Assembly: GCA_964017045.1 (NCBI GenBank)
Contig: OZ024804.1
Location: forward strand, 27,940,348-28,004,347
Reading direction: 5' to 3'
Length of the DNA: 64,000 nt
From: Omphiscola glabra
Taxonomy: Eukaryota > Mollusca > Gastropoda > Lymnaeidae
Part shown: in pieces, positions 24,339-45,604 of the stretch
How the letters are laid out: the number at the start of each line of letters is the position of its first letter
How positions within the stretch are numbered: position 1 is the stretch's first letter
The notes under the pieces: model-generated
What the model was told of the DNA's origin: nothing
Seen by the model: the letters and a program-made list of their open reading frames with translations, nothing else
The model's database searches: none
Program-made: the position numbers and the translations under genes

Positions 24339-24517
24339 CATGGAGTAATGGGTTCTGTCCTCACTTGTGTGCGACAGGTCAATGACGTGAGAGTAAAACT
24401 TCCAGTAGTACACGGCGTCTAGGACGCTCTGGTCAAACGAAGCTTTACAGCGAAGGACGGCTGTTTCGTTCTGGTTTATGGTCTGATGGGACGGAACTTC
24501 AGTGAAAACTGTTTGCT
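24339..24517 (-). CDS. Cont: Contactin exon 16: first half of Ig6
   Basis: After acceptor tgactttcag the split codon gives Glu, then QTVFTEVPSHQTINQNET, AVLRCKASFDQSVLDAVYYW and KFYSHVIDLSHTSEDRTHYS. The YYWKFxxHVIDL segment is the contactin Ig6 signature, with LRC as first cysteine and a shifted tryptophan. It ends in phase 0 after Met at donor GTAATC (24,333-24,338). The next exon must lie beyond the satellite, more than 24.3 kb away. Confidence 0.93.
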
Positions 24518-24576
24518 CTGAAAGTCACATATGTTATCACTTGGTTAACAAAAGAATCTGATGTGATAATACAAAT

Positions 24577-24834
24577 CGTATCCGGAAATTTGTTTGAAAG
24601 AAATTTCGTCGACGGAAAATTGATCGACGGAAGTTTGATCGAACGGAAATTTTGCGTCAAATTTCTTTTTTGAACGCATTATTTTGTTTTACTATATAGT
24701 ATAGTGCGTTCAAAAAGAAATTTGAGGAAAATTTGATCGTGTGAACTGTATAAAAATTCGACCAAACTTCATTAAACTTCCGTTCGATCTAACTTTCGCT
24801 GATCAATTTTCCATCAACGAAATTTCCGGTAACC
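24577..24834. mobile_element. 258-bp palindromic MITE with 9-bp target duplication (Mutator-like)
   Basis: The two halves are imperfect inverted copies: the left end tatccggaaattt and the right end aaatttccggtaac match as reverse complements, as do the inner gtcgacggaaaattgatc and gatcaattttccatcaac and the central ttgaacgca and tgcgttcaa. The element is flanked by a perfect 9-bp duplication, aatacaaat (24,568-24,576 and 24,835-24,843). Nine-base duplications are usual for Mutator-like transposons. It lacks coding capacity and lies in intron 15. Confidence 0.8.
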
Positions 24835-24929
24835 AATACAAATTAAAATATACCAGGGCTTAACGAGGTGCAGGTGGGTCCAAAAAAAAAAAAAAGAGTT
24901 GACTTCTAATTTTTTTATAATAGGTGCTG

Positions 24930-25105
24930 GCCTTTAAACAATAAGCCTACCGACAGTCCTTTAATCTCCCTGCCTGCCTTTAAAAAATAGTCCTATATGA
25001 CAGTCCTCCATCCTGGCTTCAGGCCTTTAAACAATAGGCCTAAAGACAGGCCTACACCCTACCTGCCAGCCTTTAAACAATAGTCCTACAGACAGTCCTA
25101 CACCA
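24930..25105. repeat. 46-bp minisatellite, 4 copies
   Basis: The phrase gcctttaaacaata recurs at about 24,930, 24,976, 25,023 and 25,069, each followed by gcctac or tcctac and gacagtcct. Located in intron 15. Confidence 0.8.
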
Positions 25106-25437
25106 AGCCCGTAGCTCTTTATTGGTTAGTATAATCATTGCCCCCCACTAAAGGAAAACAAAAATCAAACTATTTACTGGAGTTCCACCGTCACACATAA
25201 GGCTCACTGCGTGACATCCTTTTTTTTCCATTTCAGTGCCATTAATATAAAAAGTTGGGAGAGTGAATGGGGGGGGGGGGGCGCGGCGAGAGCGGCTTTG
25301 AAGAGGAAGCATAACTAAAATATATAAGAGAAGATATTGTGATCAAATCAATTTGTTCAATGTACACTTTATTATTTTTAATTTTTTAAGTAAACAAAAC
25401 CCACGTAACATTCGACAGCTTTATAATGGGGCTGTAA

Positions 25438-25572
25438 TGAAGGGGGTGGCGTTGTAACTTCAATGCTGTAAGAAGGGGGTGGCATTGTAACTTCAATGCT
25501 GTAAGAAGGGGGTGGCATTGTAACTTCAATGCTGTAAGAAGGGGGTGGCATTGTAACTTCAATGCTGTAAGA
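25438..25572. repeat. 33-bp minisatellite, 4 copies
   Basis: Units share gggggtggcattgtaacttc then aatgctgtaagaa. The minus-strand translation SIEVTMPPPSY is an artefact of the 33-bp period in intron 15. Confidence 0.85.
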
Positions 25573-25852
25573 AGGGGAGATGTGGTGACAAGGTTGTAAG
25601 GAAGGGACGGGGCTGTAGAAAAGATGTAAGGAGGGGACAGTGTTTGCCTTAGCTGACAAGACTACAACCGTAACGCGTCCACAGACCGCTGATCAGGGTT
25701 GACTTATAATGTCTTTAAAAATACCGGCTGTTGAATGAAGGACGCACATTTTAGGGACAGTTTGACACATTTAAAATTAATGTCAAAATAGTTCTTAAAG
25801 CGCTTGCAATTTTATGAAACAATTACTTTGGTGAACTGAATGTGTCACACAC

Positions 25853-26116
25853 CTTGCACGCTCAACAGGCATGTCGCCCGCGCCTCGCCCAGCACATTGC
25901 TCGCCACACATGTGTAGTTGCCGGAGTCAGCAATCGTTAGGCTGGAAAGTTGTAGGGCGCCGCCGGGTAGGACGCTGCCCACTTCCACGCCATTTTTCAA
26001 CCACGTGATCTGTGCGCTTGGTGCAGCCTGGGGTTGACAGGAAATGGTGATGTTGCCTCCCTTCGATGCCAACTTTGACCTCTCCACGGGACTTCCGGTA
26101 AAGGTTGGCGCGAAGT
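25853..26116 (-). CDS. Cont: Contactin exon 15: complete Ig5
   Basis: The only Ig domain encoded by one exon here. After acceptor aaatcacacag the split codon gives Tyr, then FAPTFTGSPVERSKLASKGG, NITISCQPQAAPSAQITWLK and NGVEVGSVLPGGALQ. It finishes with LTIADSGNYTCVASNVLG and ARATCLLSVQ. The framework cysteines and tryptophan are present; an extra cysteine (ATC) lies near the end. N-glycosylation motifs NIT and NYT are visible. It ends one base into a codon at donor GTGTGT. Confidence 0.95.
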
Positions 26117-26462
26117 CTGTGTGATTTAGTAAGAGAAATAAAGAGTTGAATTTAAAATGTATCTTTGTGCCCACCCCCCCCCCCTTTTTTTTCTAAAGAA
26201 AGGAATCTGTGAATAATCTCCCACATTGTAAAAAATGTCTTTTTGTTGCCCCCTCACACTGTTATCCCAAGTTTTTAAAAGATGTCTTTTGTGGCACCCC
26301 ATACACACACGCATTGTTACCCCAAGTTTGTTTAAAATGTCTTTTTGTTTCACACGATCCAATTTTCCTTCAAGCATTTGATGCAATTCGTTTATGAAGC
26401 CTTGTCACAACTTTCAAATTACTATTAGATCAAATTCCCCAAAAAAAGGAACCACGCACAAA

Positions 26463-26515
26463 ATAGTGCGTTCATACAACAATTTGACGCGAAATTTGAT
26501 CGTGTGAACTGACGC
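26463..26515. mobile_element. Fragment related to the 258-bp MITE
   Basis: Contains agtgcgttca followed by aaatttgatcgtgtgaactg, both also in the right half of the MITE at 24,577-24,834 (near 24,703-24,750). It is a partial, diverged copy in intron 14 with no clear ends, so the family is present more than once in this gene. Confidence 0.6.
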
Positions 26516-26853
26516 CAAGTGGTTGACCAAATAATAACTCGTAAAATTGGAAAAGTGCAACAGTCTCAAAGGAGCTGGGATATTTATCGGCTGAGCAGAA
26601 TTGACCGAAATGTTACAACAGACCTGAGAAAATGGAACACACAGTAGAACAAAACTGAATCCATTCAAAGATGTTGATACATCCTTTCCTTCTTATGTGT
26701 ACAATCGAATCACATGTGCTCTTTAAATATTTAAATTACCAAAAACAGACCGAAATTTTGAAAACACTGACACACCCGTTCACACACACATACACAAACA
26801 CATTTATGCTTTGATCGCACAAACCTACTGAATTCTATGACACACCGACTCAC

Positions 26854-26974
26854 AGAGTGCCCTAAGTTGCGCTGCTGTCCTGGCAAGACCCATGACGTTG
26901 TTAGCCTCACACTCGTACATCCCATCGTGACGCCCAGGCTCCACCCTGTCAATAACCAGCATGTTCCTTTGGAC
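26854..26974 (-). CDS. Cont: Contactin exon 14: second half of Ig4
   Basis: After acceptor tcatatctgcag it reads VQRNMLVIDRVEPGRH, DGMYECEANNVMGLAR and TAAQLRAL. DGMYECEANN holds the second Ig4 cysteine. It ends one base into a codon at donor GTGAGT (26,848-26,853). The acceptor region is repeated about 25 times in the upstream intron as a 24-bp minisatellite. Confidence 0.94.
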
Positions 26975-26984
26975 CTGCAGATAT

Positions 26985-27600
26985 GACAGCATGAGTACTT
27001 AGAAATATGACAACATGAGTACTTACAGAAATGACAGCATGAGTACTTAGAAATATGACAACATGAGTACTTAGAAATATGACTATACTTACAGAAATGA
27101 CAGCATGAGTACTTATAAATATGACAACATGAGTACTTACAGAAATGACAGCACGAGTACTTAGAAATATGACAACATGAGTACTTAGAAATATGACTAT
27201 ACTTACAGAAATGACAGCATGAGTACTTAGAAATATGACAACATGAGTACTTACAGAAATGACAGCATGAGTACTTACATATACAACAACATGAGTGATT
27301 AGAAATATGGCAACATGAGTACTTTGAAATATGACTATACTTACAGAAATGACAGCATGAGTACTTAGAAATATGGCAACATGAGTACTTAGAAATATGA
27401 CAACATGAGTACTTACAGAAATGACAGCATGAGTACTTAGAAATATGGCAACATGAGTACTTACAGATATGACAACATGAGTGCTTACAGATACGACAGT
27501 ATGAGTACTTACATATATGGCAACATGTGTTCTTACATATATGCCAACATGAGTACTTAAAGATATGACAACATGAGTACTTACATATACAGCAACATGA
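26985..27600. repeat. 24-bp minisatellite copying the exon 14 acceptor region
   Basis: About 25 units. Minus-strand unit form: catgctgtcatttctgtaag; the true acceptor context is tcatgctgtcatatctgcag. The array lies in intron 13 directly upstream of exon 14 in gene orientation, so the last unit is the functional 3' splice site region. Variants end in tttctaag. Confidence 0.88.
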
Positions 27601-27704
27601 GTACGTTGTTTGAAATGTTTGATTTTGTGTTTCAGGAAGTTAGGAACAAAGTTCACGGTTTATAATGATAAATGCTCCATCACTTTCAATAGCCACATGT
27701 ATAG

Positions 27705-27835
27705 CCTCCGTATAAACATATCAATGTATCCATATAAACATATCAATGTATCCATATAAACATATCAATGTCTCCATATAAACTTATCAATGTCTCCGTA
27801 TAAACATATATGTCTCTATATAAACGTATCAATCT
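27705..27835. repeat. 22-bp minisatellite, about 6 copies
   Basis: Units with ccatataaacatatcaatgt, in intron 13, unrelated to the neighbouring 24-bp array. Confidence 0.8.
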
Positions 27836-28048
27836 CTTGATACGAATGTTTCAATACTTGGCTCCTGACGGTTCTTGTTGTTTAGTTAACTGAGTTTTAT
27901 CACAATCGCATGAATGACATTTCATACAAAGTTAAGCAACAAATGACACACCGATGCTGACATAAGGCAAGTTGCGGAGTGACATCTTGAAAACCCGATA
28001 CTTGGAGTAGGTGTAAAATAATACATTTTACTCCAACAAATCGCATAC

Positions 28049-28197
28049 CTTAATGCCTTCCTCAGACATAAGGATCCGGCCATTTTTATACCAGGTGTAT
28101 GTAGGTTTGGGGACACCAATGGCGGCGCACGTCCAGGTCAAGGTCGCTCCTGCATCCACGTGCTGATTCTGTAAAGGGAAAGGAAAGCTGGGCGGGG
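28049..28197 (-). CDS. Cont: Contactin exon 13: first half of Ig4
   Basis: After a T-rich acceptor (ttttttttag) the split codon gives Ser, then PPSFPFPLQNQHVDAG, ATLTWTCAAIGVPKPTY and TWYKNGRILMSEEGIK. LTWTC with TWYKNG is diagnostic of contactin Ig4. It ends in phase 0 at donor GTATGC. Confidence 0.94.
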
Positions 28198-28369
28198 CTA
28201 AAAAAAAAAGGTCAAGAAAAGTAGAAGTGAAAACTGAACTTTGAACTCTGAATAAGATGACGTCATGGTTTGAGATAGGAAATACTGATATTGTTATATA
28301 TCAATTATGGAATCTTTGTATTAATAATCAATAATCATGACACATGTCAATAAAATAAGGCTGCACCTA

Positions 28370-28777
28370 TTTGTACACGGGTACCCGAATTGAGATGTTG
28401 GGATTAAAAAAACGATTAAAAATAGTATTGTTGGGTTTGTAAGACCAAATGAGGTATCAAATGAAAGATAATTGAATGTACTATACGTTTGTAAACTTAA
28501 TTCTTCATTTTAACTAAAATAAACTACTACAAACGACATCCGAATAGCATTAGTCAAAATGGATCCGGACACGCAGCGTCGCCATTCGCACCCGGGTACC
28601 ATTAGGCTCAATGCTATTGGTGGAAGTTTATTTTAGTAAAACTGAAGAATTAAGATTTCAAACGTAGTCCATTCAATTATCTTTCATTTGATACCTCATT
28701 TGGTCTTACAAACCCAACCATAATATTTTAAATCGTTTTTTAATGCCAACCTCTCAATTCTGGTATACGTGTACCAA
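28370..28777. mobile_element. 408-bp MITE with long inverted arms and TA duplication
   Basis: Left arm (from tttgtacacgggtacc) and right arm (ending cgtgtaccaa) are reverse complements over about 180 bp with moderate divergence. Both hold the inner gtaagaccaaatgaggtatc and atgaaagataattgaatg. Flanking TA dinucleotides (28,368-28,369 and 28,778-28,779) fit a Tc1/mariner-type element. The loop between the arms (about 28,550-28,610) is short and non-coding. Located in intron 12. Confidence 0.82.
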
Positions 28778-28853
28778 TAGCCACTTCGATAAAATAATTT
28801 GGAGCGATGATTTCATCTACACACCATCCAAATGTTTTCGTTGAACGGCTTAC

Positions 28854-29035
28854 ATTTCAAACTAAGCACAACTGTTTTGTTGACAGTGTTGCGATCCCCT
28901 CTGACCACACACGTGTAGATCCCCGTGTCTTCCAGTCGGGCTGAAGGTATCACAAGGACTCGGTTGTGGTCCTTGGTGTACGCCTGGGGATGTAGGGGGC
29001 CATCTTCTCTAACCCAGGAGTAGTACAGCGGGAGT
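28854..29035 (-). CDS. Cont: Contactin exon 12: second half of Ig3
   Basis: After acceptor cttctgcccag the first base completes AGA (Arg), then LPLYYSWVREDGPLHP, AYTKDHNRVLVIPSARLEDT and GIYTCVVRGDRN, ending VVLSLK. The tryptophan in YSWVR and the DTGIYTC motif complete the Ig fold. It ends one base into a codon at donor GTAAGC. Intron 12 carries a 408-bp inverted-repeat transposon. Confidence 0.94.
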
Positions 29036-29249
29036 CTGGGCAGAAGACAATATTTTTTTTTATGATTGTTGATTAATTTTATGTTTTTGAGCTGAGATAA
29101 GGGTGCTATTAACTAAAGTTTTTTTGTTTTCCCGTAATTATTCTGAAATCAGTCTTTTACACAACATTAGTAACAATTTATTTTATTTCCCCGCACATAT
29201 CAATTTTTTTATTGAGATTCTTCCGTTAAAAAAAAACAATAATCATTAC

Positions 29250-29803
29250 TATGACATGGCTATAACAAGATTACCTTTATGACATGGCTAAACAAGATTA
29301 CATTCATGACATTGCTATAACAAGATTACCTTCATGAAGTTGCTATAACAAGATTACCTTCATGACATTGCTATAACAAGATGACTATGACATGGCTATA
29401 ACAAGATTACCTTCATGACATTGCTATAACAAGATTACCTTCATGACATTGCTATAACAAGATTACCTTTATGACATTGCTATAACAAGATTACCTTCAT
29501 GACGTTGATATAACAAGATTAACTTCATGACATTGCTATAACAAGATTACCTTCATGACATTACTATAACAAGATTACCTTTATGACATTGCTATGACAA
29601 GATTACCTTCATGACATTGCTATAACAAGATTACCTTTATGACATTGCTATAACAAGATTACCTTCATGACGTTGATATAACAAGATTACCTTCATGACA
29701 TTGCTATAACAAGATTACCTTCATGACATTACTATAACAAGATTACCTTTATGACATTGCTATGACAAGATTACCTTTATGACATTACTATAACAAGCTT
29801 ACC
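29250..29803. repeat. 28-bp minisatellite copying the exon 11 donor
   Basis: About 20 units in intron 11. On the gene strand the unit contains tgaaggtaatcttgttatag; the real exon-intron boundary reads ggaaggtaagcttgttatag and passes straight into the array. Each unit thus carries AAG followed by GTAATC, a usable-looking 5' splice site. Confidence 0.93.
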
Positions 29804-29908
29804 TTCCATAAGCGAGGCATTCGATCTCCACGCCATCACCAACTATTGGCACAGCAGGGAAATATTGAGGGAACTTGTCTTGTATGTCAGGACCATATGT
29901 GTTGGCGT
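29803..29908 (-). CDS. Cont: Contactin exon 11: first half of Ig3
   Basis: After acceptor tctctccctcgtag the split codon A|AC gives Asn, then ANTYGPDIQDKFPQYF and VGDGVEIECLAYG. YGPDIxxKFPQ is the classic start of contactin Ig3, and IECLAYG carries its first cysteine. It ends two bases into a codon at donor GTAAGC (29,797-29,802). Reading on gives AGG TAA, an immediate stop. The following intron is mostly a 28-bp minisatellite that repeats this boundary. Confidence 0.94.
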
Positions 29909-30711
29909 CTACGAGGGAGAGACATTGGCAGAGTTTAGTGCAGTTTTATTAAATAATGAACAATTTCAAAGTGCATACAAAACACTTGCACTTATTATGA
30001 GCGCCATCTTTAGAGCTCTTTTTGCGAATTGTAACATTGAGCCTAATAATAATTGCATTTTTGAGTAACTGCGGGAGCGTCTCCGAAAAACTTGGGTGAG
30101 CCCACATGAGGTTCGCCTCAACGTGGCAGACTAGTAGGAAGCAACTGTTCTTCCGAAGAAAAAAACCCCGACCGACCGCATGATTCCCACCGAAACGGGA
30201 GTAGTAACGTCGTAATATGATTACTCGTTGCCGTTGATGGATATGAGGCTTGGGCGACGGTTAAAACCCATGCCGATGATTTTAGCTACGCGGCCCCGAG
30301 AAAGCCGCCCCTAGGCAACCGTTTCGCTCCAGCTTTCCGTCCCGACCAAAAGATTCCCTGAGCGGTGGGGAATGGTAACGCAACACTTTTCCTCCGGAGT
30401 AGAAGAAAACCCGACGAGACCCAAGGAGAGTGGACTGCGAACGCTTTAAACGCAGCATTCTCGGTCGACCGGACGTCCCCCAGGCCAGGGGGGGGGAAGG
30501 TTCCCGGCTTGTCTCCGCGCGGTCTGTTGGCGGGGAAATCCGCGTCTGGTCCATGTGGAGGTGTGGAGGGGGACATTAAGAGCTCACTCTCGACGGTCCA
30601 CCGACGCCGTTTCACACTGTGATGTTTCAGCAGAATGATTCCCCGCACCTCGTCCACACATACACCCAAGTCCTTTGGTCGGCATGTTTTTAGTTGCATG
30701 CTGACTATGCA

Positions 30712-30912
30712 GGCTGGGTGGTCCAGCGGTCTAAACTGACTCAATCTAAATAGTGTGGAGTTCAATCCCCACCAAAGCCAAGACAAGTAAAGACATCCCA
30801 AGCACCGGGTTGATGGGGTTCGTAAGCCTTGCACGGCAAATCATCTAAGAGAAGGTAAACTCTGAATTGAAAACAAGAGCCAGAATAATCAATAAATTGA
30901 TCGTGGGTCCTC
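30712..30912 (+). mobile_element. tRNA-derived SINE, copy 1
   Basis: Begins ggctgggtggtccagcggtc (A-box-like) and continues to gtggagttcaatccccacc, with a B box (gttcaatcc). It then shares aaagcc, catcccaagca, aatcatctaagagaaggtaa and actctgaattgaaaac with the copy near 53,897. The tRNA-like head and a common body in two distant places identify a SINE family; its ends are not defined. Confidence 0.72.
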
Positions 30913-31544
30913 AAATATAGGAATATAGGAAAGGAAGGAGGTCCTGCCACCTACCCCTTGGCGCTATACCCAGGGAACGTAACAACCATTTCGTGGGCCT
31001 ATTTGAGCAGACAAAGATGTATGGTATATGCCGAAATTGTAGCAACTACAGACAGTGGTACTGCCAGTTGTGGACATATCTGCAATTGAAATTATGGTAG
31101 AAACAGTGCAGGGATCATGCTTACTATATTGAAAATAATGGATATAAGCCATGAAGTGGGTAGTGGCAGCATCATGCTAATGATTCGTAGTTCCAGCTAC
31201 CTCGCGAACAATTTATGAAATAAAAATCTCACTGTTGAAAACCCCATAGGAGGGCGTCCACTGATTCCCCGGGATGGGCAGTGGAGGTTATTAGGACGTC
31301 CCCATCCCGACCCCTGGGAAAATAGATGGCTAGTACTGTAAGAAAGCAGCACTATCGAACGACCGGATGTCCGAAAGTCGAGATGGGTCTCGTAAAACTT
31401 ATCAGTTCCTAATGTAATTTTTAACTGGATTCCCTCGCAAAGAGCGCTCACCTTTGCGGTGCGAGAGACTAGCGGGCTTTGAGCGCAACTGAAGTGTATG
31501 ACCGAGCTAATAATTCGGCACCCTCACCAAGGCCGAATGACTCC

Positions 31545-31628
31545 TGGACAAGAGAACGAATGACTCCTGGACAAGAGACCGAATGACTCATGGACAAGAG
31601 ACCGAATGACTCCTGGACAAGAGACCTA
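31545..31628. repeat. 22-bp tandem repeat, 4 copies
   Basis: gaatgactcctggacaagag recurs four times with single changes, inside the transposon-derived block of intron 10. Confidence 0.85.
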
Positions 31629-31662
31629 AGGGACGCGACGCTGCGTTCATTTCTTTCTGTTC

Positions 31663-31778
31663 TAACGGCTTGCACAATCGATACCTTTAACCTAAGTCTG
31701 GATGAACGTCTAGACCCCTAACGGCTTGCACGATCGATACCTTTAACCTAAGTCTGGATGAACGTCTAGACCCCTGTG
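31663..31778. repeat. 58-bp tandem duplication
   Basis: Two adjacent, nearly identical 58-bp copies beginning aacggcttgcac and ending gtctagacccct; I see one difference (caatcgat against cgatcgat). Confidence 0.9.
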
Positions 31779-31939
31779 CGTCGTTGTTGGGGAACTGGTT
31801 GGCGCATGGGATTGCTACTGTCGGAGATGGCTTGAGGAGTGGGGGGGGGGGGGCTATCTCTCTCCTTGCCGGGGACTAAGATCAGTCCGAAATGTAGTGA
31901 ATAAGTGACTGATCGTGATAGAAGTGGGTACGATGACTG

Positions 31940-32250
31940 ATGGTCCTGCAACTGAATATGTGTGGTATTGAGACAGAAAGCGCACAAAATAACCAAACTA
32001 CTCAATGAACAAGAAGTGCACGTAGCCTTACTCCAAGAAACGCTGCTATATGGCGAACTGTTTCAATTAACTGGTTATTCGCTATACCATTGCCTATGCA
32101 CCCGATGTCGACGTCTTGCTACATCTGTTCGAAACGATCTCACTGTTGAAGAGCTGCAACAAAACGGATACTCTAACCTTGAGAGTATTCAAGAAGGTCA
32201 TCGCTTTTATAGTAACGAGCTGCAGGCTGAGCCTTATTTTGTAGAATACT
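31940..32250 (+). pseudogene. Non-LTR retrotransposon fragment, endonuclease start
   Basis: The translation LRQKAHKITKLLNEQEVH then VALLQETLLYGELFQL and GYSLYHCLC matches the start of the AP-type endonuclease of LINEs; the conserved ALLQET carries the catalytic Glu. The preceding QLNINGI-type motif is frameshifted (tgtggtattgagacag has an extra base). The rest of the endonuclease and the reverse transcriptase are absent, so the copy is dead. It sits in plus orientation in intron 10, opposite to the contactin gene. Confidence 0.78.
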
Positions 32251-32359
32251 CGTTAACAGTCATTGTTTTTTTTAAAAACAAAAACAGCCACGGCCAATAA
32301 GTAATTGTGAAATGAAAAATATTATTAATGATGATTTTTTTTCTGCACCCCCACCCCCG

Positions 32360-32461
32360 GTAAGTTTTCCCTAGTTTTTGTCAGTTGTGTTCACTGTTCA
32401 CACCCCTCCTGTAAGTTTTCCCTAGTTTTTGTCAGTTGTGTCCACTGTTCACACCCCGCCG
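32360..32461. repeat. 51-bp direct duplication
   Basis: gtaagttttccctagttttt occurs at 32,360 and 32,411 with matching downstream bases to cactgttcacacccc. Located in intron 10 just beyond the exon 10 donor. Confidence 0.85.
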
Positions 32462-32483
32462 AGTTCATAAATGAAACGCTTAC

Positions 32484-32596
32484 TCTCTCCCGTGACAACC
32501 AGTTGTATTCCCATGGATGTCCTTGAAGGGGGCTGCTCCCCGGCCAAAACGTGACCACTTCTTGGTGCCATAAAAACCATACAATAATACTCGTCC
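32484..32596 (-). CDS. Cont: Contactin exon 10: end of Ig2
   Basis: After acceptor tcaattccag the first base completes CAG (Gln), then DEYYCMVFMAPRSG with the second Ig2 cysteine, HVLAGEQPPSRTSMGIQ and LVVTGE. The QPPSRTSMGI stretch is typical of the invertebrate contactin Ig2-Ig3 junction. It ends one base into a codon at donor GTAAGC. The same bases also read as HPWEYNWLSRER in another frame, which looks Ig-like but does not fit the phase. Confidence 0.92.
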
Positions 32597-32869
32597 CTGG
32601 AATTGATGAAAAAAAAAAGTTTTTATTCCTCATAACTTGTGAATATAATTTAATTATCATTCATAACAAATATTCCCAAATCTTTATGCCTAACCATTAA
32701 AATGAAGTAAAATTGAAATCCATTAAATAAGTTGTCAAGTATAAATTTAGGAGATGTCTAACTCAAAAAAAAAAAAAAAAAAAGGTCGTAGTCCATAACC
32801 TTCTACACCCTAAATCGAAATCTGATCCTTTGATAATCCTTATCCATAATTCCAAAGCCCCTGAAAAGT

Positions 32870-33415
32870 CTCCTCATAACACCCCTTACCCATTAAATCC
32901 TCACCTCAACAAAGTACACCCTCTCAACTTAACACACCCTCGAGTCAACAAAATACACCCTCACCTCAATAGGAAACACCCTCACCTCAACAAAATACAC
33001 CCTCACCTCAACAATATAACCCTCTCAACTTAACACACCCTCACCTCATCCAAAAAACACCCTCACCTCAACAAAATACACCCTCACCTCAACAATATAA
33101 CCCTCTCAACTTAACACACCATCACCTCATCCAAAAAACACCCTCACCTCAACAAAATACACCCTCACCTCAACAAAATACACTCTCAATTCAACAAAAC
33201 AAATCCCCACCTCAACAAAACCCACTCTCACCTCAACAAAATACACCCTCACCTCAACAAAATACACCCTCACCTCAACAAAATACACTCTCAATTCAAC
33301 AAAACACATCCCAACCTCAACAAAACACACCCTCACCTCAACAAAATACAGCTTCACCTCAACAAAATACACTCTCACCTCAACAAAACACACTCTCACA
33401 CCCTCACCTCAACAG
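32870..33415. repeat. 21-bp minisatellite
   Basis: About 25 units related to ctcaacaaaatacaccctca, some longer by insertion of ttaacacaccctc. Located in intron 9. On the gene strand the unit reads gaggtgagg, which also resembles a donor. Confidence 0.88.
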
Positions 33416-33524
33416 TATTTACCCCTACTTCAATATTAACCATCATCCCACCCCACACGATATCCTAGTAAGAAAAAGGAAATATAATTGCTAATACTGT
33501 AGGTTGATTCTGGTTGTTTACCAA

Positions 33525-34381
33525 CCAATTGTTGAATTACTGGATGTTGACCAACCCATTGTTGACCTACTGGATGTTGACCAACCCATTTTTGACCTAC
33601 TGGATGTTGACCAACCCATTGTTGACCTACTGGATGTTGACCAACCCATTGTTGACCTACTGGATGTTAACCAACCCATTGTTGACCTACTGGATGTTGA
33701 ACAACCCATTGTTGACCTACTGGATGTTGACCAACCCATTGTTGACCTACTGGATGTTGACCAACCCATTGTTGACCTACTAGATGTTGACCAACCCATT
33801 GTTGACCTACTGGATGTTGACCAACCCATTGTTGACCTACTGGATGTTGACCAACCCATTGTTGACCTACTGGATGTTGACCAACCCATTGTTGACCTAC
33901 TGGATGTTGACCAACCCATTGTTGACCTACTGGATGTTGACCAACCCATTGTTGACCTACTGGATGTTGACCAACCCATTGTTGAACTACTGGATATTGA
34001 CCAACCCATTGTTGACCTACTGGATGTTGACCAACCCATTGTTGACCTACTGGATGTTGACCAACCCATTGTTGACCTACTGGATGTTGACCAACCCATT
34101 GTTGACCTACTAGATGTTGACCAACCCATTGTTGACCTACTGGATGTTGACCAACCCATTGTTGACCTACTGGATGTTGACCAACCCATTGTTGACCTAC
34201 TGGATGTTGACCAACCCATTGTTGACCTACTGGATGTTGACCAACCCATTGTTGACCTACTGGATGTTGACCAACCCATTGTTGAACTACTGGATATTGA
34301 CCAACCCATTGTTGACCTACTGGATGTTGACCAATCTATTTTTAACCTACTGGATGTTGACCAACCTATCGTTCGACTTAC
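33525..34381. repeat. 30-bp minisatellite related to the exon 9 donor
   Basis: About 28 units, very homogeneous, beginning at the exon 9 donor. Gene-strand boundary: gatcagtaagtcgaacga; array unit: catccagtaggtcaacaa. Every unit thus keeps a GTAGGT in place of GTAAGT. Open frames on both strands (for example 33,504-34,460) result from the 30-bp period. Confidence 0.88.
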
Positions 34382-34499
34382 TGATCAGCTGCCTGAACCT
34401 CAGATATATACAGCCCGCCATTTCTGGAAAGGAAATATTGCGCGTTTAGTTCCGGCCTGATGAAGTTAAAATTGGACTTGTACCAGCTGTACCGGAGAT
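34382..34499 (-). CDS. Cont: Contactin exon 9: middle of Ig2
   Basis: After acceptor ctttcttccacag the split codon gives Asp, then LRYSWYKSNFNFIRPEL and NAQYFLSRNGGLYISEVQAAD. RYSWYK holds the Ig tryptophan and GGLYISEVQAAD is the strand before the second cysteine. It ends two bases into a codon (CA) at donor GTAAGT (34,376-34,381); reading on gives CAG TAA, a stop. A 30-bp minisatellite of about 28 units, related to this boundary, starts directly at the donor. Confidence 0.92.
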
Positions 34500-35124: not shown

Positions 35125-35451
35125 TACCAGCCACAAGACTACTCACAGCCATAAGATTACTCACAGCCATAAGATTACTCACAGCCATAAGATTACTCAC
35201 AGCCATAAGATTACTCATAGCCATAAGATTACTCACAGCCATAAGACCACTCACAGCCATAAGACTACTCACAGCCATAAGAATACTCACAGCCATAAGA
35301 CTACTCACAGCCATAAGACTACTCACAGCCATAAGACTACTCACAGCCATAAGACTACTCACAGCCGTAAGACTACTCACAGCCATAAGACTACTCACAG
35401 CCATAAGACTACTCACAGCCGTAAGACTACTCACAGCCATAAGACAGCTCT
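35125..35451. repeat. 18-bp minisatellite copying the exon 7 donor
   Basis: About 18 units. On the gene strand the exon 7 boundary gtcttatggctgtgagta is identical to the array unit, so a perfect 5' splice site (GTGAGT) with its exonic flank is repeated every 18 bp. Some units vary (tcttatgg, gtcttacgg). Confidence 0.94.
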
Positions 35452-35528: not shown

Positions 35529-35564
35529 CTGAATGAATAATCAAACATGAACTGATTAAACCTA

Positions 35565-36825: not shown

Positions 36826-36849
36826 AACACGGAGTTGCTCTAATTTAGA

Positions 36850-36967: not shown

Positions 36968-36999
36968 CACAGGGCCGTGTCTCAATTAGACTAAAAATA

Positions 37000-37405
37000 A
37001 TATTGGAAGTAATGCACTTTATATCCAAATTATTGCACCCCCCCCCCCCCCAAAGTATGTTATGCAAAAAAAAAAATTTAATTATATAAATGTTCTAATG
37101 ACCCACCCTCTTTTACACCGCATATTAATTTCACCAACTATTTCAGAATAAACCAAAGCAAATATTATGCATCAAACGCGTTTGCGATATTTTTAAAAAA
37201 GAATCTACTTTAGCGCAGTTATCGGGAATTTCATTTTATCTTCCCTTTGAAACACAGGAAAAACTGAATTTTGGAGGGGGGGGGGGGCAAGTTTCAGCTC
37301 GATAGCATGAAGGAAAGTTGGTCAAATAGCCGTCCGAATATTTAGTCCCCCAGCCAGTCAGCCAGCCACAGACAAAGCGAAGTTAATTTAAAAGATTTAC
37401 AAATT
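37000..37405 (+). repeat. Dispersed ~440-bp repeat, copy A
   Basis: Shares with the copies at 48,470 and 63,380 a poly-C tract, ttttacaccgca, a poly-G tract, gtttcagctcgata, tcaaatagccgtccgaatat and a closing caaagcgaagttaa. The order is the same in all three. It lies in intron 4, in the same orientation as the others. Confidence 0.75.
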
Positions 37406-37551
37406 AAACCGGTCGCGATAAAGGTGATTCTGGAATGAAGCCACTTGCTCACGTCGGGTTTTCTGTGTGCCCATTTTAAGCAAGAAGTTTGGGGAATTCG
37501 ATTTATACTAACTTTTCTGTAATCCTGATCACAAAAAAACTTAAAAACTAA

Positions 37552-37626
37552 CTTACAGAAATCTCTCATCCCAACTTACAGAAATCTCTCATCCCAACAT
37601 ACAGAAATTTATCATCACAACTTACA
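37552..37626. repeat. 23-bp tandem copies of the exon 4 donor
   Basis: The exon 4 boundary agagatttctgtaagttg is followed by three further 23-bp copies, with donors at 37,597 (GTATGT), 37,574 and 37,551 (both GTAAGT). Copies 3 and 4 keep the full core. Confidence 0.93.
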
Positions 37627-37739
37627 GAAATCTCTCTGTTGTTGATAGAGTTTCCACACATCTGACTTGTCCATCTCACAAACAAAGGACCCTGTCTTCA
37701 TCAGTCTATTCCATGCCCACATGTAACTGTTGGCTGAAG
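37626..37739 (-). CDS. Cont: Contactin exon 4: end of C-type lectin-like domain
   Basis: Starts after acceptor ctaattacag; the split codon gives Ala, then SANSYMWAWNRLMKTG and SFVCEMDKSD and on to QQQRDF. FVCE is the canonical last strand with the terminal domain cysteine. The WND calcium-ligand triplet is replaced by WAWN, so classical calcium-dependent sugar binding is doubtful (inference). An alternative acceptor 10 bp downstream (gccaacag) was rejected because it breaks phase and opens onto a stop. It ends one base into a codon at GTAAGT (37,620-37,625). Three further copies of exon end plus donor follow in the intron. Confidence 0.9.
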
Positions 37740-38279
37740 CTGTAATTAGAACCACAGCGAATGTTACAGTTTTTTTACATTGGGGTGTGGGTGGTGAGCT
37801 CCAAAAACCTGAACATTAACACGTGCAACTTGAACATTAGCACATATAATAATTTGAACGTTAAAATACAAAACTTGAGCATCTAAATCTATATGTTTTA
37901 ACTATATAAAAAAGTGGGATTGAAATTTCAACAATATGTCTGTGTAAAGTCAGGAGGTATCAAACACGACTCATGAAGCTCTATGAATTGTAGCGTGAGC
38001 CCCACATTGTGATATGTGTCATACAATTTTTGGTGCAAGCCCCATATCTACTCTGGTCAAAAATGAGATAAATAATAAACAAATAGATATTATACTAATT
38101 AATTTTAAAAAATTAAGCATTTGTTTTATACATAAGGTATAATCAATAACAACAATGTCAAGTGTAAATGAGAAAATTAAATGGAGATAATTTTTTAACA
38201 AATTACAATGAATTATTTCCCTTCATTTGCAGCACCAAGACAATTTTTCCATGATGACTCGAAGAATTATTGGAAATAA

Positions 38280-38540
38280 AGGGGAGAGAAATGAAACGCT
38301 GGGAAATGAAATGATATGAAACAATGGGAAATGAAACAATGGGAAATGAAACAATGGGAAATGGAACAATGGGAAATGAAACAATGGGAAATGAAACAAT
38401 GGGAAATGAAATAATGGGAAATGAAACGGTGGGAAATGAAATAATGGGAAAAGAAATGATGTGAAATGAAATGATGTGGTACGAAATGAAACGGTGGGAA
38501 ACAAAAAAAAACGTGGGAAATGACAAGTGGGGAAACTGGT
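38280..38540. repeat. 15-bp minisatellite in intron 3
   Basis: About 16 units of ggaaatgaaacaatg with drift. The edge phrase tggggaaactggtgggaaat is shared with the intron 8 array. Confidence 0.9.
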
Positions 38541-38719
38541 GGGAAATGAAATGTCCACTACATAAACACCCAGCTTGAAATGCTACACACCACCAAAGCC
38601 GTCACGTGACTTTCTAAAAGTTGAAAGTTGCTATATTTTCCACAGCACACCATTGTCCTTGAATAGCCAAGAAACGCTGCAGCCACAGGCGTTGCTACGC
38701 CCATGAGACAGTAATGCAA

Positions 38720-39117
38720 CCACTAAACTTGTATACAATCACTTTATGTTACATACCCCTAAACTTGTATACAATCACTTTATGTTACATACCCCTAAAC
38801 TTGTATACAATCACTTTCTGTTAAATACCACTAAACTTGTATACAATCACTTTATGTTACATACCCCTAAACTTGTATACAATCACTTTCTGTTAAATAC
38901 CACTAAACTTGTATACAATCACTTTATGTAATATACCACTATACTTGCATACAATCACTCTCTGTCACATACCGCTATACTTGTATACAATCACTTTATG
39001 TTACATACCCCTAAACTTGTATACAATCACTTTTTGTTAAATACCACTAAACCTGTATACAATCACTTTATGTAATATAACACTATACTTGTATACAATC
39101 ACTCTAAGTCACATACC
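38720..39117. repeat. 36-bp minisatellite copying the exon 3 donor
   Basis: About 11 units. Exon 3 boundary on the gene strand: tacaagtatagtggtatgtg; typical unit: tacaagtttaggggtatgta. Each unit keeps a GTATGT donor and roughly ten exonic bases. Confidence 0.92.
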
Positions 39118-39286
39118 ACTATACTTGTATACAATGACGTTATTTTCCAGCCCTGTCAGGACATCCACCAATGTGTCCTCCTTGCTTCTCTCATCATCAA
39201 AATAAGTTGCATCTGCTTGGCTACCATCAGAGTCCCACAATATGGAGCCCCCAGTCTCTCGTAGACCACTAGTGAACCACTGCAAT
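39117..39286 (-). CDS. Cont: Contactin exon 3: middle of C-type lectin-like domain
   Basis: Begins after acceptor ttgtaag, completing AGA (Arg), and reads LQWFTSGLRETGGSILWDSD then GSQADATYFDDERS and onward, ending ...NNVIVYKYS. The WFTSG and WDSDGSQ segments match the core of contactin lectin domains. No cysteine occurs in this exon, so the usual inner C2-C3 disulfide of such domains seems absent, and no EPN or QPD sugar-binding triplet is visible. It ends one base into a codon at donor GTATGT (plus 39,111-39,116). The 36-bp minisatellite that follows in the intron is built from this exon end and donor. Confidence 0.9.
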
Positions 39287-39864
39287 CTTACAACAGATAA
39301 AACAATGTAAACATAATTTTATAATATATATTCCAAAAAATATGCTAAAACGTATAAAATAAATTATGTTATCCAAAACTTCAGAGCTGTTAAAATCTTG
39401 TGACTACAAAAAGCGTTGGGAATTTTTTAGAAAGTGTGTATTTAAATTATTTTTTTTTAAAACTTCGTTTTAATTTCTTCCTATTTAGACTTTGGAGATG
39501 TTAAAAAAAAAAGATATTGGAATATGATTTAAAGAAGCTGAGTGAACACGCGATGTCCCTTGGGTTTCCCCTTTCCTTAGATATCCGAGGAGGTCATTCA
39601 AGGGTCATTGAAGGTCACTGGTGACATACTGATCATGAAAGGTTGTATTACCACCAGGGGTGGGTATGTGTACAGAATATTCAGTTGAATTGTAGATCAG
39701 GAAGTGGGTCAAAATTGAGATGCTAAATTGACCATACACAAACTTACAAACGGAGAGCCCAATCTAAGAAACTAAGAACAAGTGTATAATAATAAAATAG
39801 ACGAGTTTTCTAAGGCTTAGGTTCAGCAATGAGGGCCGAGGTTGTGTCACAGGATTTGGAATAG

Positions 39865-39970
39865 TTTTCATAGTTTTCATAGTTTTTATAGTTTTCATAG
39901 TATTCATTGTTTTCATAGTTTTCATAGTTTTCATAGTATTCATTGTTTTCATAGTTTTCATAGTTTTCAG
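39865..39970. repeat. 9-bp simple repeat
   Basis: About 12 copies of gttttcata, in intron 2. Confidence 0.9.
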
Positions 39971-40009
39971 CTAAACGTCAGATTACAACAGCTTTCCACT
40001 AAGTGACTG

Positions 40010-40432
40010 AACTGACCTGTGTCCTCTAACTGACTTGTGTCCTCTAACTGACCTGTGTCCTCTAACTGACCTGTGTCCTCTAACTGACTTGTGTCTTCTA
40101 ACTGACCTGTATCCTCTAACTGACCTGTGTCCTCTAACTGACCTGTGTCCTCTAACTGACCTGTGTTCTAACTGACATGTGTCCTCTAAGTGACCTGTGT
40201 CCTCTAACTGACATGTGTCCTCTCACTGACTTGTGTCCTCTAACTGACCTGTGCCCTCTAACTGACCTGTGACCTCTAACTGACCTGTGTCCTCTAAGTG
40301 ACCTGTGTCCTCTAACTGACATGTGTCCTCTCACTGACCTGTGTCCTCTAACTGACATGTTACCTCTAACTGACCTGCGTCCTCTAACTGACCTGTGTCC
40401 TCTAACTGACCTGTGTCCTTTAAGTTAACTGA
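40010..40432. repeat. 18-bp minisatellite resembling the exon 2 donor
   Basis: About 23 units in intron 2. Gene-strand unit core acaggtcagttagagg against the exon 2 boundary ataggtcagttaaaag (13 of 16 bases). The array begins about 260 bp past the donor, so the link is less direct than for exons 3, 4, 7, 9 and 11. Confidence 0.85.
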
Positions 40433-40696
40433 TTTGACTTCAACCCTTTAAGTGCTAACAATAAACATCGATTAAAAAAATATATAAATAACAAACAATG
40501 TGTTCAATCAATCAAATGGCGGGGACCAGGGGACCAGGTGACCAGGGACCAGGGGACGAGGGGACCAGAGTCAAATTTTATCAGTGGAAGGAAAAAAGAG
40601 GGGGTGGGGTAGAAAATCGGGGCAATCGAAAATGGAATGAATTAGCCATAATAAATGTGCACCATACAAATAGTTTCCTAAACTCTTTTAACTGAC

Positions 40697-40877
40697 CTAT
40701 TTCCGTCATGAGTATTAAGCCAGTTCTGCAGGAAGCCGTGTTCCCCGGCAGAGTTTACGCTGACCAGCGACGACATGTCCTGCTGACATACGATGGCCGC
40801 CTCCTGGAACGTCTTCTCAGGACTCAAGACAAATTTGTAACAATGTCCAAAATATTCGAACCAGGCAGGCGGGCAGG
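40697..40877 (-). CDS. Cont: Contactin exon 2: first half of C-type lectin-like domain
   Basis: Starts after acceptor catacacag and encodes ACPPAWFEYFGHCYKF and onward through residue 89. The CPxxW...CY start is the usual opening of a long-form C-type lectin-like domain. It is followed by the helix with AAIVC, whose cysteine is the one that normally pairs with the last domain cysteine, and by LVSVNSAGEH and FLQNWL. It ends two bases into a codon at donor GTCAGT (plus 40,691-40,696). The domain would face outside the cell. Intron 1 (4.6 kb) separates it from the signal peptide. Confidence 0.92.
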
Positions 40878-41205
40878 CTGTGTATGTTGGGGGGGTGTGG
40901 GAGTAGGTAACAAAATAAAATAGCCTCATTTAATAAATCTGACAGGAAAGAAAAGTTTCAAACATTCCCAAAGCCTGATCTAATCCCATTCCAATAGGAC
41001 AAAAAGTTATTATTTGTAACAATAGGCTCCATTGTACACTGATCGACTTCAGTCAAGGGCCGCTAGTAATAGCAATCAAATTTGTTATACAAGGCAATAA
41101 GCCAAAATAGAAATCAATGGATGGGGGATCATCGAAGAGCACTATTCCAGCTGGCAAACAGACGGAGTAAAGAAGGCAGAACATGCGCGAAGCGAAGCCC
41201 TTGCC

Positions 41206-41390
41206 CAGTGGCGTAGTGAGGGGGGGCAAGGGGGGCATCATGCCCCCGGGCGCTACTCACAAAGGGGCGCCAAATGGTATATTTTACTATAATATTGTTT
41301 GGTTTTCGAATAGGGTGGGCGCTAAAAAGTTATTAGGGGCGCTAAAAAGGTATTGTGCCCCGGGCGCGAGTTAAGCTCGCTACGCCACTG
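41206..41390. mobile_element. 185-bp hAT-type MITE
   Basis: Ends cagtggcgtagtgag and ctcgctacgccactg form inverted repeats. The flanking 8 bases are cccttgcc (41,198-41,205) and cctttgcc (41,391-41,398), an 8-bp target duplication with one change. Both features are typical of hAT transposons. Non-coding; intron 1. Confidence 0.85.
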
Positions 41391-41564
41391 CCTTTGCCCC
41401 AACAAAAAGAGAATTATGGAAGGCAAAATTTAACCAGGAGTCAAGGTTCTCCTGCGATCGGCCAATCGTGAGCCATTTGATCAAGTGTCAATAGCTGCTC
41501 CAGAAGGATGCCGTATATCATAAATATATATACCATGAAAATGTTTTGCTTTGTTTGTGGATTT

Positions 41565-42120
41565 GTTTTTCCCCACAAAGGCTTCCAGTTGGATAGATGG
41601 ATCTTGACTAAACTTGGCAGATATATCCATCATTATCTGGAAGGAGCTCTTTAGGGATTTTTAATTTTTTTTTAACATTCCTTTTGGGGCCGGGGGCCCT
41701 GAATTCTTTTTTTTTATATGAGCTATATAAATAAAATGGCCAACAAATACTCCTACATTAAGGATGGATCTTGACCAAACTTAGTACACATAAACTTTAT
41801 TATCCATACTCAAATTCAAAGGGTACTGACCTCATAATATCCATTCCGCTGGGATCGTCCATGTAGTTTTTCCTTATATAAGCTTTATAAATATCAATAG
41901 GCTTAGACAATGCTATAGTTTCTATGTGAATTTATGGATCTAGGCAGTGGCGTAGCAGCATGATGTCCCCCTTGCCCCCCCCCATCCTCGCTACGCCACT
42001 GGATCTAGGCCTAGCTTGGTAGTAATGCACTTCATTGTCCGTATTGAAATATCGGTCGATTTAAAACTAATAAAATCCTACCCATTCAAGGTCGATCTAG
42101 AATTTCCATGGAAGTTTGAT
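41565..42120. repeat. Three diverged ~165-bp tandem copies
   Basis: gatggatcttgac(t/c)aaactt recurs near 41,601 and 41,763, and a related ggatctaggcctagcttggt near 42,001, each followed by an att(a)tcc phrase. The third copy is split by the small hAT element. The family is unidentified; intron 1. Confidence 0.55.
41945..42001. mobile_element. 57-bp hAT-type MITE with perfect 8-bp duplication
   Basis: cagtggcgtagcagc at one end and cgctacgccactg at the other. The flanks are identical gatctagg octamers (41,937-41,944 and 42,002-42,009). It is among the shortest possible forms of the element at 41,206 and interrupts an older repeat. Confidence 0.87.
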
Positions 42121-42139
42121 AATTAAAAAACACAAAACT

Positions 42140-42300
42140 TTATTATTATAATTAGATGTCTTTTTCTATAGCGCAATACCCCAGCCTAGCGCTAGGCTCA
42201 CTTCTATAGCCCACTACCCCAGCCTAGGGCTAAGCTCACTTCTATAGCCCACTACCCCAGCCTAGGACTAGGCTCACTTCTATAGCCCACTACCCCGGTA
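42140..42300. repeat. LINE-tail fragment amplified as 38-bp repeat
   Basis: caataccccagcctagcgct at 42,173 resembles the tail of the LINE near 46,490 (gataccccagcctagggct). Its end is followed by three more copies at a 38-bp period containing cacttctatagcccactacc. Confidence 0.7.
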
Positions 42301-42580
42301 AGAATCCTAACGGGATCGGGATCCCACCTGCAAACTTGATCTAACTGGGATCGGGGTCCCACCGGGATCTGGTTCAAACTAGGATCGGGATTTAACGGGA
42401 TCGGGTTCCCATCGGGATCGGGATACCGACGGGATCGGGAAACCACCGGGATTGGGATCCCATGGAGAAACGGGATCCCATCAGGAAACGAGGTGCCGCC
42501 AGGATTCGGATCCAAAGTAATCGGGATCCAACCGGAATTGGGATGCCATCGGTAAACGAGAGACCATCGGGAACGAGTGG
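42300..42580. repeat. Degenerate ~18-bp gggatcgg minisatellite
   Basis: Imperfect units around cgggatcgggatcccac, in intron 1. Confidence 0.75.
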
Positions 42581-43639
42581 TTTACTAAAGTTATTATAAA
42601 TATGTTTTTATAGGAGACAAAAAGAGTTATTTTATTATTCTACTATACCGGTGTTTTTAAATATTTTTTTAACATAGTTCTTAATTTCAATGTTGATTAA
42701 AAGGCTGTAGAAGTAGGTTTTTTCTTCTTCTGAATGCTATCCCGGGAAACGCCCGGTAGATTGGCTAGTATATTAAAAAATAGAAATGGGATTTTCAAGA
42801 TGATAATTTTATGTCCAAATCATTATCATAAAGCCAAATTCCGTTTTGTTGGCCCATTATTTCTATCGCCCATATTCCCCCAATTCCACGTTGGCTCGCA
42901 GGGCTTGATTGACAAAGATCATAAAACCATTTAAGTTTGAATTCGATTTAAATAAACGTATCGTGTAAGTTTACTACGTTTAAACAGATCAACCGAGTTC
43001 GACATAAGATAAACAGTTCACGTGAGTTTGTCATTAAAGAAACAAGTCATAGCATTTGAGAATCGTCCAGTTTTCGTCCAAATTATAATCGAATAAGAGA
43101 AATGTCAACTTTAAGAAAGTATAATACATACACGAGTCAAAATTATATTTAAAAAAAAGAAAAACTTTGTTTGAAACATATAATTTAATATTTCAAAGTA
43201 CCAGTGCCTTCGGTTCGAAGTGATTATTTATGATCCTGTTGTCTCAGGCACCATTTACTCTTCTGACCCTAAAAAAACTGGTTGTGTCAACCCCCCTTCC
43301 CCTTTTTTCCCCCTTTTTTTGTCCGCCCCTTTTGAAATCTAACAATGGCATGATTCATTGACAACCCGCAATTTGTTTTGTGTACTACAAGTCACGAGCT
43401 TATTGTATTACTGTAGGATTATCTAAAAGCCAACAAAATAATCATACAAAAACCCCTTCATTATTTCAGCAGAACGTAACATTGAATGATATACAACTAA
43501 CATTTTACTTCCATTGAGATTTTAAAAAAAATATATTAAGTTCTGGAAAAAAATCTGGTTCATCCGGTGGCAACTAATTATTAACTCATCTCCCAACAAA
43601 AAAAAAGCATTGACTCGTAAATGAATTTAAAAATCTGCA
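42581..43639. other. Part of intron 1 without recognised features
   Basis: AT-rich sequence with short homopolymer runs. No exon-like, RNA-like or transposon-like signal was seen on either strand. Confidence 0.5.
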
Positions 43640-44805
43640 GAGTTTCTTTTTTGTTTAGAATTCCTTGCATTAAAAGTTGATAGTTTCTTTTTGCTTAGTA
43701 TTCCCTGCATTAAAAGTTAATAGTTTCTTTTTGTTTAGTATTCCCTGCATTCAAAGTTGATAGTTTCTTTTTGTTAAGTATTCCCTGCATTAAAAGTTGA
43801 TAGTTTCTTTTCGTTTAGTATTCCCTGCATAAAAGTTGATAGTTTCTTTTTGTTTAGTATTCCTTGCATTAAAAGTTGATAGTTTCTTGTTGTTTAGTAT
43901 TCCCTGCATTCAAAGTTGATAGTTTCTTTTTGTTTAGTATTCCTTGCTTTAAAAGTTGATAGTTTCTTTTTGTTTAGTATTCCCTGCATTCAAATTTGAT
44001 AGTTTCTTTTTGTTTAGTATTCCCTGCATAAAAGTTGATAGTTTCTTTTTGTTTAGTATTCCTTGCATTAAAAGTTGATAGTTTCTTTTTCTTTAGTATT
44101 CCTTGCATTAAAAGTTGATAGTTTCTTGTTGTTTAGTATTCCCTGCATTCAAAGTTGATAGTTTCTTGTTGTTTAGTATTCCCTGCATTAAAAGTTGATA
44201 GTTTCTTGTTGTTTAGTATTCCCTGCATTCAAAGTTGATAGTTTCTTTTTGTTTAGTATTCCCTGCATTAAAAGTTGATAGTTTCTTTTTGTTTAGTATT
44301 CCTTGCATTAAAAGTTGATAGTTTCTTTTTGTTTAGTATTCCCTGCATTCAAATTTGATAGTTTCTTTTTGTTTAGTATTCCTTGCATTAAAAGTTGATA
44401 GTTTATTTTTGTTTAGTATTCCCAGCATTCAAATTTGATAGTTTCTTGTTGTTTAGTATTCCATGCATTAAAAGTTGATAGTTTCTTTTTGTTTAGTATT
44501 CTTTGCATTAAAAGTTGATAGTTTCTTTTTGTTTAGTATTCCTTGCATTAAAAGTTAATAGTTTATTTTTGTTTAGTATTCCCTGCATTCAAATTTGATA
44601 GTTTCTTGTTGTTTAGTATTCCCTGCATTAAAAGTTGATAGTTTCTTTTTGTTTAGTATTCTTTGCATTAAAAGTTGATAGTTTCTTTTTGTTTAGTATT
44701 CACTGCATTCAAATTTGATAGTTTATTTTTGTTTAGTATTCCCTGCATTAAAAGTTAATAGTTTCTTTTTGTTTAGTATTCCCTGCATTAAAAGTTGATA
44801 TTGGG
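43640..44805. repeat. 40-bp minisatellite, about 29 copies
   Basis: Units contain gtttagtattccctgcatt and aaagttgatagtttctt. On the gene strand each unit reads ttttaatgcaggg, acceptor-like, but no adjacent exon provides a matching seed. Intron 1. Confidence 0.92.
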
Positions 44806-45344
44806 GAGCTCATAAGTGAAACTAATATTGTTATCAGCTTAAATATAAGAAGAGTATTGTGGCATAAGGGCAGAACTTAAAGGGGAGGCAATTTTATTTT
44901 TTGTGTACTGGAATGCACTCATACATTTTCAGCCAGATCGGGTAATTTATTTAACCCCCCAAAAATATATATACATATAATTTTTTAAAAGTAAGTAACG
45001 CGAAGATGTGATAATCTCCCCTTGGCATATCATTTCATCAGTGGGGTAAGAATGATTTAAAAAAAAAATGTTTTATATTATTTGTGAGGGAGGGGCGTTA
45101 AACGCTATTACCGCTCCGGAGTCAAAATGTGTAATTACGCCACCGATTATCCTTGCTTTGCTGTATTCAATGTGTGGTTGATATAGGAAATTTATCTTAT
45201 CATTATATCATCGGTTGATTTCATACATTTATTGTTTTAATGCAGCTGTTTTCATGCACTAACCTATAGATTGGAACGTCAGCCTTTAAGATTAACATAC
45301 CCTAGATTCTAGAAATAAAGACCAAATGATCTAAATGTAAGGCG

Positions 45345-45486
45345 ATACACTGAATGTAAGGGAATACACTAAATGTAAGGTAACACACTAAATGTAAGGT
45401 GACACACTAAATGTAAGGTAACACACTAAATGTAAGGTGACACACTAAATGTAAGGTAACACACTAAATGTAAAGTGATACACTAA
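45345..45486. repeat. 18-bp minisatellite, about 8 copies
   Basis: acacactaaatgtaaggt repeated, starting about 30 bp past the exon 1 donor. Same unit length as the main satellite but unrelated sequence, and without the donor. Confidence 0.88.
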
Positions 45487-45516
45487 ATTTTTTCGTTGTC
45501 GGAACAAAGCACTTAC

Positions 45517-45604
45517 CAATATCATGTTGCCCAGTTATACAGTGTATAATGATAATGCCATGTACCAGAATGATGATCAATGTCTTCAGAATTGTTCTGC
45601 ACAT
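45517..45604 (-). CDS. Cont: Contactin exon 1: start codon and signal peptide
   Basis: The 88-bp coding part reads MCRTILKTLIIILVHG then IIIIHCITGQHDI, a short basic start followed by a long hydrophobic stretch, typical of a secretory signal peptide. It ends one base into a codon at a perfect donor (GTAAGT, plus 45,511-45,516). An in-frame TGA 18 bases upstream of the ATG supports this start. The split codon G|CC joins exactly to exon 2. Cleavage probably falls near residues 22-25 (inference). Any 5' UTR exon or promoter upstream was not identified; just upstream are four short agaagactaa-like repeats. Confidence 0.82.

Follow-up and report, generated by a model that had tools for sequence, protein, structure and literature searches.

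Tandem arrays at five exon–intron boundaries of a contactin gene in the snail Omphiscola glabra resemble the mirage minisatellites of amphioxus

How could five splice donors of one gene come to lie within tandem arrays whose repeat units are unrelated to one another? The question is raised by a contactin gene encoded on the minus strand of a 64,000-nucleotide stretch of the genome of the gastropod Omphiscola glabra (assembly GCA_964017045.1, contig OZ024804.1, positions 27,940,348 to 28,004,347), referred to below as the window. An original prediction, made from the letters of the window, held that introns 3, 4, 7, 9 and 11, and probably intron 2, contain arrays whose unit includes the last exonic bases and the 5′ splice site of the preceding exon, and that the array of intron 13 is related in the same way to the 3′ splice site of exon 14. 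The feature is real, and the prediction was confirmed in part. The reading favored here, with a probability of about 0.7, is that the boundary arrays are minisatellites of the mirage type known from amphioxus, that is, small duplications covering the end of an exon together with the adjoining 5′ splice site that would have grown on the intron side and been tolerated.

Within the window, the gene comprises 16 exons (45604 to 24339), whose joined sequence is an uninterrupted frame of 743 codons. The product obtained with the exon-proximal donors aligns gap-free across its 743 residues with its best protein relative, the predicted Lymnaea stagnalis contactin P0001, with 681 residues (92%) being identical, and its best match in PDB is contactin-2. 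The N-terminus is weakly C-type-lectin-like, with a Lectin_C match just under the Pfam cut-off, and is followed by regions assigned to Pfam immunoglobulin families, including Ig_3 in five stretches. The gene extends beyond the left edge of the window through intron 16, which holds a 24 kb array.

Arrays delimited by Tandem Repeats Finder (TRF) include donor bases +1 to +6 at five of the 16 donors, namely those of exons 3, 4, 7, 9 and 11, as predicted (Table 1). The further claim that the units take in the last exonic bases holds firmly at exons 3, 4 and 7 and marginally at exons 9 and 11. As in mirages, the arrays cross the exon–intron boundary, their units are of minisatellite size (18–36 bp), and GT occupies most of the donor columns. 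When the authentic site is counted, gct/GTGAGT (the slash marks the boundary) is present in 16 of the 18 donor columns of the exon 7 array and tct/GTAAGT in three of the four columns of the exon 4 array; at exon 9, the authentic donor is GTAAGT and the array copies are mostly GTAGGT, and at exon 11 the corresponding hexamers are GTAAGC and GTAATC. The units of introns 2, 3, 4, 7, 9, 11 and 13 are mutually unrelated: none of the 21 pairs matches better than shuffled units do (lowest P = 0.12). Units were also matched to donors, for 20 of the 27 arrays of the gene plus the 24 kb array, against 1000 random non-array 45-mers; each of the five boundary arrays ranked its own donor first of 16, a result that agrees with the prediction and is partly circular, since the intron side of these donors is itself array sequence. 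A single invading repeat, which the prediction had also discounted, was rejected on these two grounds, and the comparison supports separate local duplications as the presumed origin of the boundary arrays.

Table 1. Coordinates in the window of the contactin gene and of the arrays compared with its splice sites.
Feature	Coordinates	Strand	Exon edge	Exonic bases in array	Copies	Remarks
Contactin gene, exons 1–16 within the window	24339..45604	(-)				Exon model without stops; Pfam; PDB; L. stagnalis alignment
18-bp array in intron 2	40010..40423	(-)				273 bp into intron; unit resembles exon 2 donor (14/16)
36-bp array over exon 3/intron 3 boundary	38719..39143	(-)	Exon 3 end, 39117	27	11.8	
23-bp array over exon 4/intron 4 boundary	37550..37636	(-)	Exon 4 end, 37626	11	3.8	
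18-bp array over exon 7/intron 7 boundary	35128..35445	(-)	Exon 7 end, 35435	11	17.7	
30-bp array from exon 9/intron 9 boundary	33510..34383	(-)	Exon 9 end, 34382	2	29.1	
28-bp array from exon 11/intron 11 boundary	29251..29806	(-)	Exon 11 end, 29803	4	20	
24-bp array of intron 13	26978..27604	(-)	Exon 14 start, 26974	0		Stops 3 bp ahead of exon 14

The direction of copying was examined at exon 3 only. The end of this exon codes for VYKYS; L. stagnalis P0001 has the identical stretch and other gastropods a similar one. Within the intron-3 array, the stretch recurs every 36 bp, except that one step is skipped. A pattern search of the array returned 11 matches including that of the exon itself, of which three code for VYKYS exactly and eight are near variants. 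Because the coding stretch is conserved in relatives and recurs in the array, the array must have been copied from the exon end. The first full unit of each of the five boundary arrays agrees less with the consensus (0.87–0.94) than the internal units do (0.93–0.98; a single unit at exon 4), which corresponds to the escape of the boundary unit from homogenization reported for the globin mirages of amphioxus.

The two remaining arrays of the prediction are less clear-cut. The 18-bp array of intron 2 contains cag/GTCAGT in 14 of its 23 copies, and its unit ranks the exon 2 donor first of 16 (P = 0.004 against the random 45-mers, uncorrected for the 21 arrays tried); given this value and the match at 14 of 16 positions, a common origin of the array and the exon 2 donor is probable, not certain. 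The predicted resemblance therefore stands, but the array itself lies apart from the donor. The unit of the intron-13 array can indeed be aligned along 27 bp to the end of its intron, but since the array halts short of exon 14, it is not an exon-including case, contrary to what had been claimed. None of the 15 acceptors (bases −1 to −6) lies inside a TRF array. The stretch at 26978–27604 combines donor-like GTAAGTA (11 occurrences), AG (29, the authentic one included) and branch-point-like yTnAy (24) motifs.

Two further arrays, at 32360–32457 in intron 10 and 45331–45488 in intron 1, begin 26 and 28 bp inside their introns, respectively, and their units are unlike the adjoining donors (P = 0.82 for intron 10 and 0.97 for intron 1). 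The 9-bp array of intron 2 (39861) shows a 7-bp match (P = 0.034, uncorrected). The array in intron 16 (1–24221) consists of approximately 1,345 copies of an 18-bp unit with 92% matches, reaches the left edge of the window and contains two frames that are open for more than 1,600 codons; its derivation from the exon 16 donor is unsupported, the best match spans 8 bp and gives this donor rank 2 among the 16 (P = 0.017, with no correction for the 21 arrays).

The mirage reading draws together the five donors within arrays, the indication that exon 3 is the source of its array, the divergent first units in five of five cases, the gap-free product and the contrast between donors and acceptors. The genome being inclined to tandem duplication, short duplications would first span the end of an exon together with the 5′ splice site next to it; growth would later proceed on the intron side through slippage or unequal exchange. 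The exon-adjacent copy would keep the reading frame and stay a working donor, and the remaining copies would be removed with the intron; for these reasons, donor duplications may be tolerated. With acceptor duplications, decoys would come to lie ahead of the true site, and purging of such duplications would be more probable; this may be why donors are found in arrays rather than acceptors.

Several points weigh against this reading. The exon model is the analyst's own choice, with splice sites read from the genomic sequence, and the comparison with L. stagnalis was made at the level of a predicted protein. The arrays of exons 9 and 11 take in no more than 2 and 4 exonic bases. The contrast between first and internal units rests on one internal unit at exon 4, the units at the far ends give mixed values (1.00, 1.00, 0.94, 0.83 and 0.96 for exons 3, 4, 7, 9 and 11), and the divergence of the first units may instead stem from constraint on a working donor. 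The difference between donors (5 of 16) and acceptors (0 of 15) gives P = 0.04 in a Fisher test but P = 0.17 once the array abutting exon 14 is counted. Finally, tolerance accounts for an excess of donors over acceptors but not for one over positions inside introns, whose duplication is likewise neutral, and the apparent donor excess needs luck, undetected seeds or a true bias.

Luck is the substance of the alternative that survives best, in which dense minisatellites strike some donors by pure coincidence and their placement needs no further explanation. This alternative is compatible and overlaps with the mirage reading, and it can be regarded as a tentative possibility. Arrays make up 39% of the intronic bases, and five of 16 donors is no excess over such plain coverage (P = 0.81); the same coverage, however, predicts that several acceptors should be covered, and the observed zero is a deficit (P = 0.0006). 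Coverage, moreover, arises from the growth of few seeds, and a yardstick based on seeds seems to suit the birth of arrays better. The arrays counted were the 27 obtained by merging the TRF rows of the gene by hand, excluding those at 1–24221 and 45612–45654 (upstream of the start codon), although the exon 16 donor was kept among the 16 donors. In a model with one seed per array, collapsed arrays take up 693 bp, or 5.6%, of a total collapsed intron length of 12,298 bp, so that 0.9 donors are expected where five were seen (binomial P = 0.0015).

The same excess is an argument for a second alternative, under which the donors themselves would actively give rise to tandem repeats; microhomology in donor-like motifs, or RNA:DNA structures formed at the 5′ splice site during transcription, could be the cause, to name two examples. 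Placement simulations that allowed an exon overlap of up to 27 nt gave P = 0.0002 to 0.00085 for at least five donors, and with the overlap held to 10 nt or less, a limit broken by exons 3, 4 and 7, no such outcome occurred in 20,000 placements. The presence of comparable arrays in several amphioxus genes points in the same direction. The probability nevertheless rises to 0.027 when the number of seeds is doubled and to 0.12 when it is tripled, is 0.028 when all 31 sites are pooled (0.007 with the array abutting exon 14 counted), and departs from significance altogether under base coverage, as given above. In addition, 21 of the 27 intronic arrays lie neither on a donor nor within 3 bp of an acceptor, and the evidence comes from one gene that was picked after the fact for its striking look. 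The donor excess is a lead, not a result. On the evidence of a single gene, targeting of splice sites is no more than a possibility; active seeding by donors is unlikely, and it is doubtful that the 5′ splice sites of lymnaeids genuinely act as hot spots of minisatellite birth, with donor-derived arrays throughout the genome and a process held in common with amphioxus.

The prediction had also proposed that the repeated donors might serve as a splicing sink or a switch for nonsense-mediated decay (NMD), on the grounds that a frame continued past the donors of exons 2, 3, 4, 7, 9 and 11 quickly meets a stop. In-frame stops were indeed found at +2 to +17 in these introns, but all 16 introns reach one by +51, and early stops are therefore nothing special to the introns with arrays. 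According to U1 duplex energies, which were obtained from a duplex program and not from a splice-site model, the numbers of GTs at least as strong as the authentic donor are 15, 6, 2, 14, 27 and 0 for exons 2, 3, 4, 7, 9 and 11, respectively, and the 27 of exon 9 are mostly out of the donor phase. The fraction of cyclic shifts of the unit that are at least as conserved as the decoy hexamer is 0.78, 1.00, 0.28, 0.73 and 0.32 for exons 3, 4, 7, 9 and 11 and lowest, at 0.06, for exon 2. Across these six arrays, the decoy donor columns thus show neither consistent extra conservation relative to the rest of the unit nor consistent weakening, and selection on decoy donors is unsupported by unit conservation and U1 energies alike. 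A regulatory role, in which decoys would compete with the authentic donor and lower the yield of productive mRNA, can be called very improbable: although five of the six arrays contain GTs that equal or exceed the authentic donor in strength and each of these introns is stopped early, exon 11 has no such GT, the decoy hexamer is not consistently conserved, the early stops are common to all donors, and amphioxus mirages are reported or suggested to leave splicing undisturbed.

Elsewhere in the window, a near-palindromic foldback element is located in intron 12 (28367–28780); its inverted arms are nested and measure 77, 55 and 50 nt. A 239-codon minus-strand frame at 47110–47829 matches no Pfam family at E 0.001; judged by eye, it looks reverse-transcriptase-like. 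No Pfam family was found at the same threshold in five open reading frames, and no Rfam family reached its gathering score in 24222–64000.

The five boundary arrays would form a dense natural set for studying how the spliceosome chooses the exon-proximal donor among near-identical ones. If donors were seeds genome-wide, this would suggest a connection of splicing or transcription with the birth of tandem repeats, and a supply of sequence from which introns could be gained.

Repeated donor sites in a transcript have a reported human counterpart. A minisatellite in a human interferon-induced transcript is said, in the title of Turri et al. 1995, to give multiple splice donor sites, reportedly in the gene 6-16/IFI6; it resembles the snail arrays in this respect but concerns a single locus.

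Human paralogues in segmental duplications carry internal tandem repeats at exon–intron boundaries, and these boundary-sited minisatellites are reported to be capable of changing splicing and of creating introns (PMC2812944). In a potato RdRp gene, a duplication over an intron–exon boundary likewise copied splice signals, but there one duplication gave rise to a new intron, whereas the snail arrays sit inside introns (PMC4974935). With regard to intron gain by tandem duplication, the spliced snail product is gap-free against the L. stagnalis protein, a comparison made at the protein level. The part seen of an earthworm metallothionein paper reports intronic minisatellites, and boundary arrays are not among what it reports. 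No mollusc mirage was encountered in titles and the beginnings of abstracts, where coverage of gastropods is incomplete, so that a printed case may exist.

The closest systems are the mirages of amphioxus, minisatellite-like tandem duplications of exon/intron boundaries that are described for Adh3, the globins BflGb6 and BflGb9, TnC and PGBD5 (PMC3087553, PMC3902484). The claim that no process of this kind had been described is therefore wrong as far as the structure is concerned; how mirages are seeded is called unclear in PMC3087553. Their units measure 10–72 bp in Adh3 and 150–160 bp in the globins, as cited in PMC3087553, and similar, imperfect repeats of 60 and 108 bp are given for lancelet PGBD5, with Adh and TnC cited (PMC3902484). 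Amphioxus and snail arrays share tandem duplication of a boundary and many units with splice signals (GT/AG in amphioxus, GT in the snail), and in the globin mirages, as apparently in the snail, the boundary units are excluded from homogenization (PMC3087553). Mirages also occur at 3′ boundaries, for which the nearest snail candidate is the intron-13 array, 3 bp short of its exon, with no acceptor within arrays. Splicing is reported or suggested to be undisturbed in amphioxus, length polymorphism among alleles or somatic cells is a further trait of mirages, and transcript evidence exists for the primate repeats of PMC2812944, whereas the snail arrays are known from one genomic sequence. The snail case further differs in its molluscan host, its five donor arrays in one gene and its units of 18 to 36 bp; with five boundary arrays, a density unusual for a single gene, this mollusc gene would carry mirages outside the amphioxus genes considered here.

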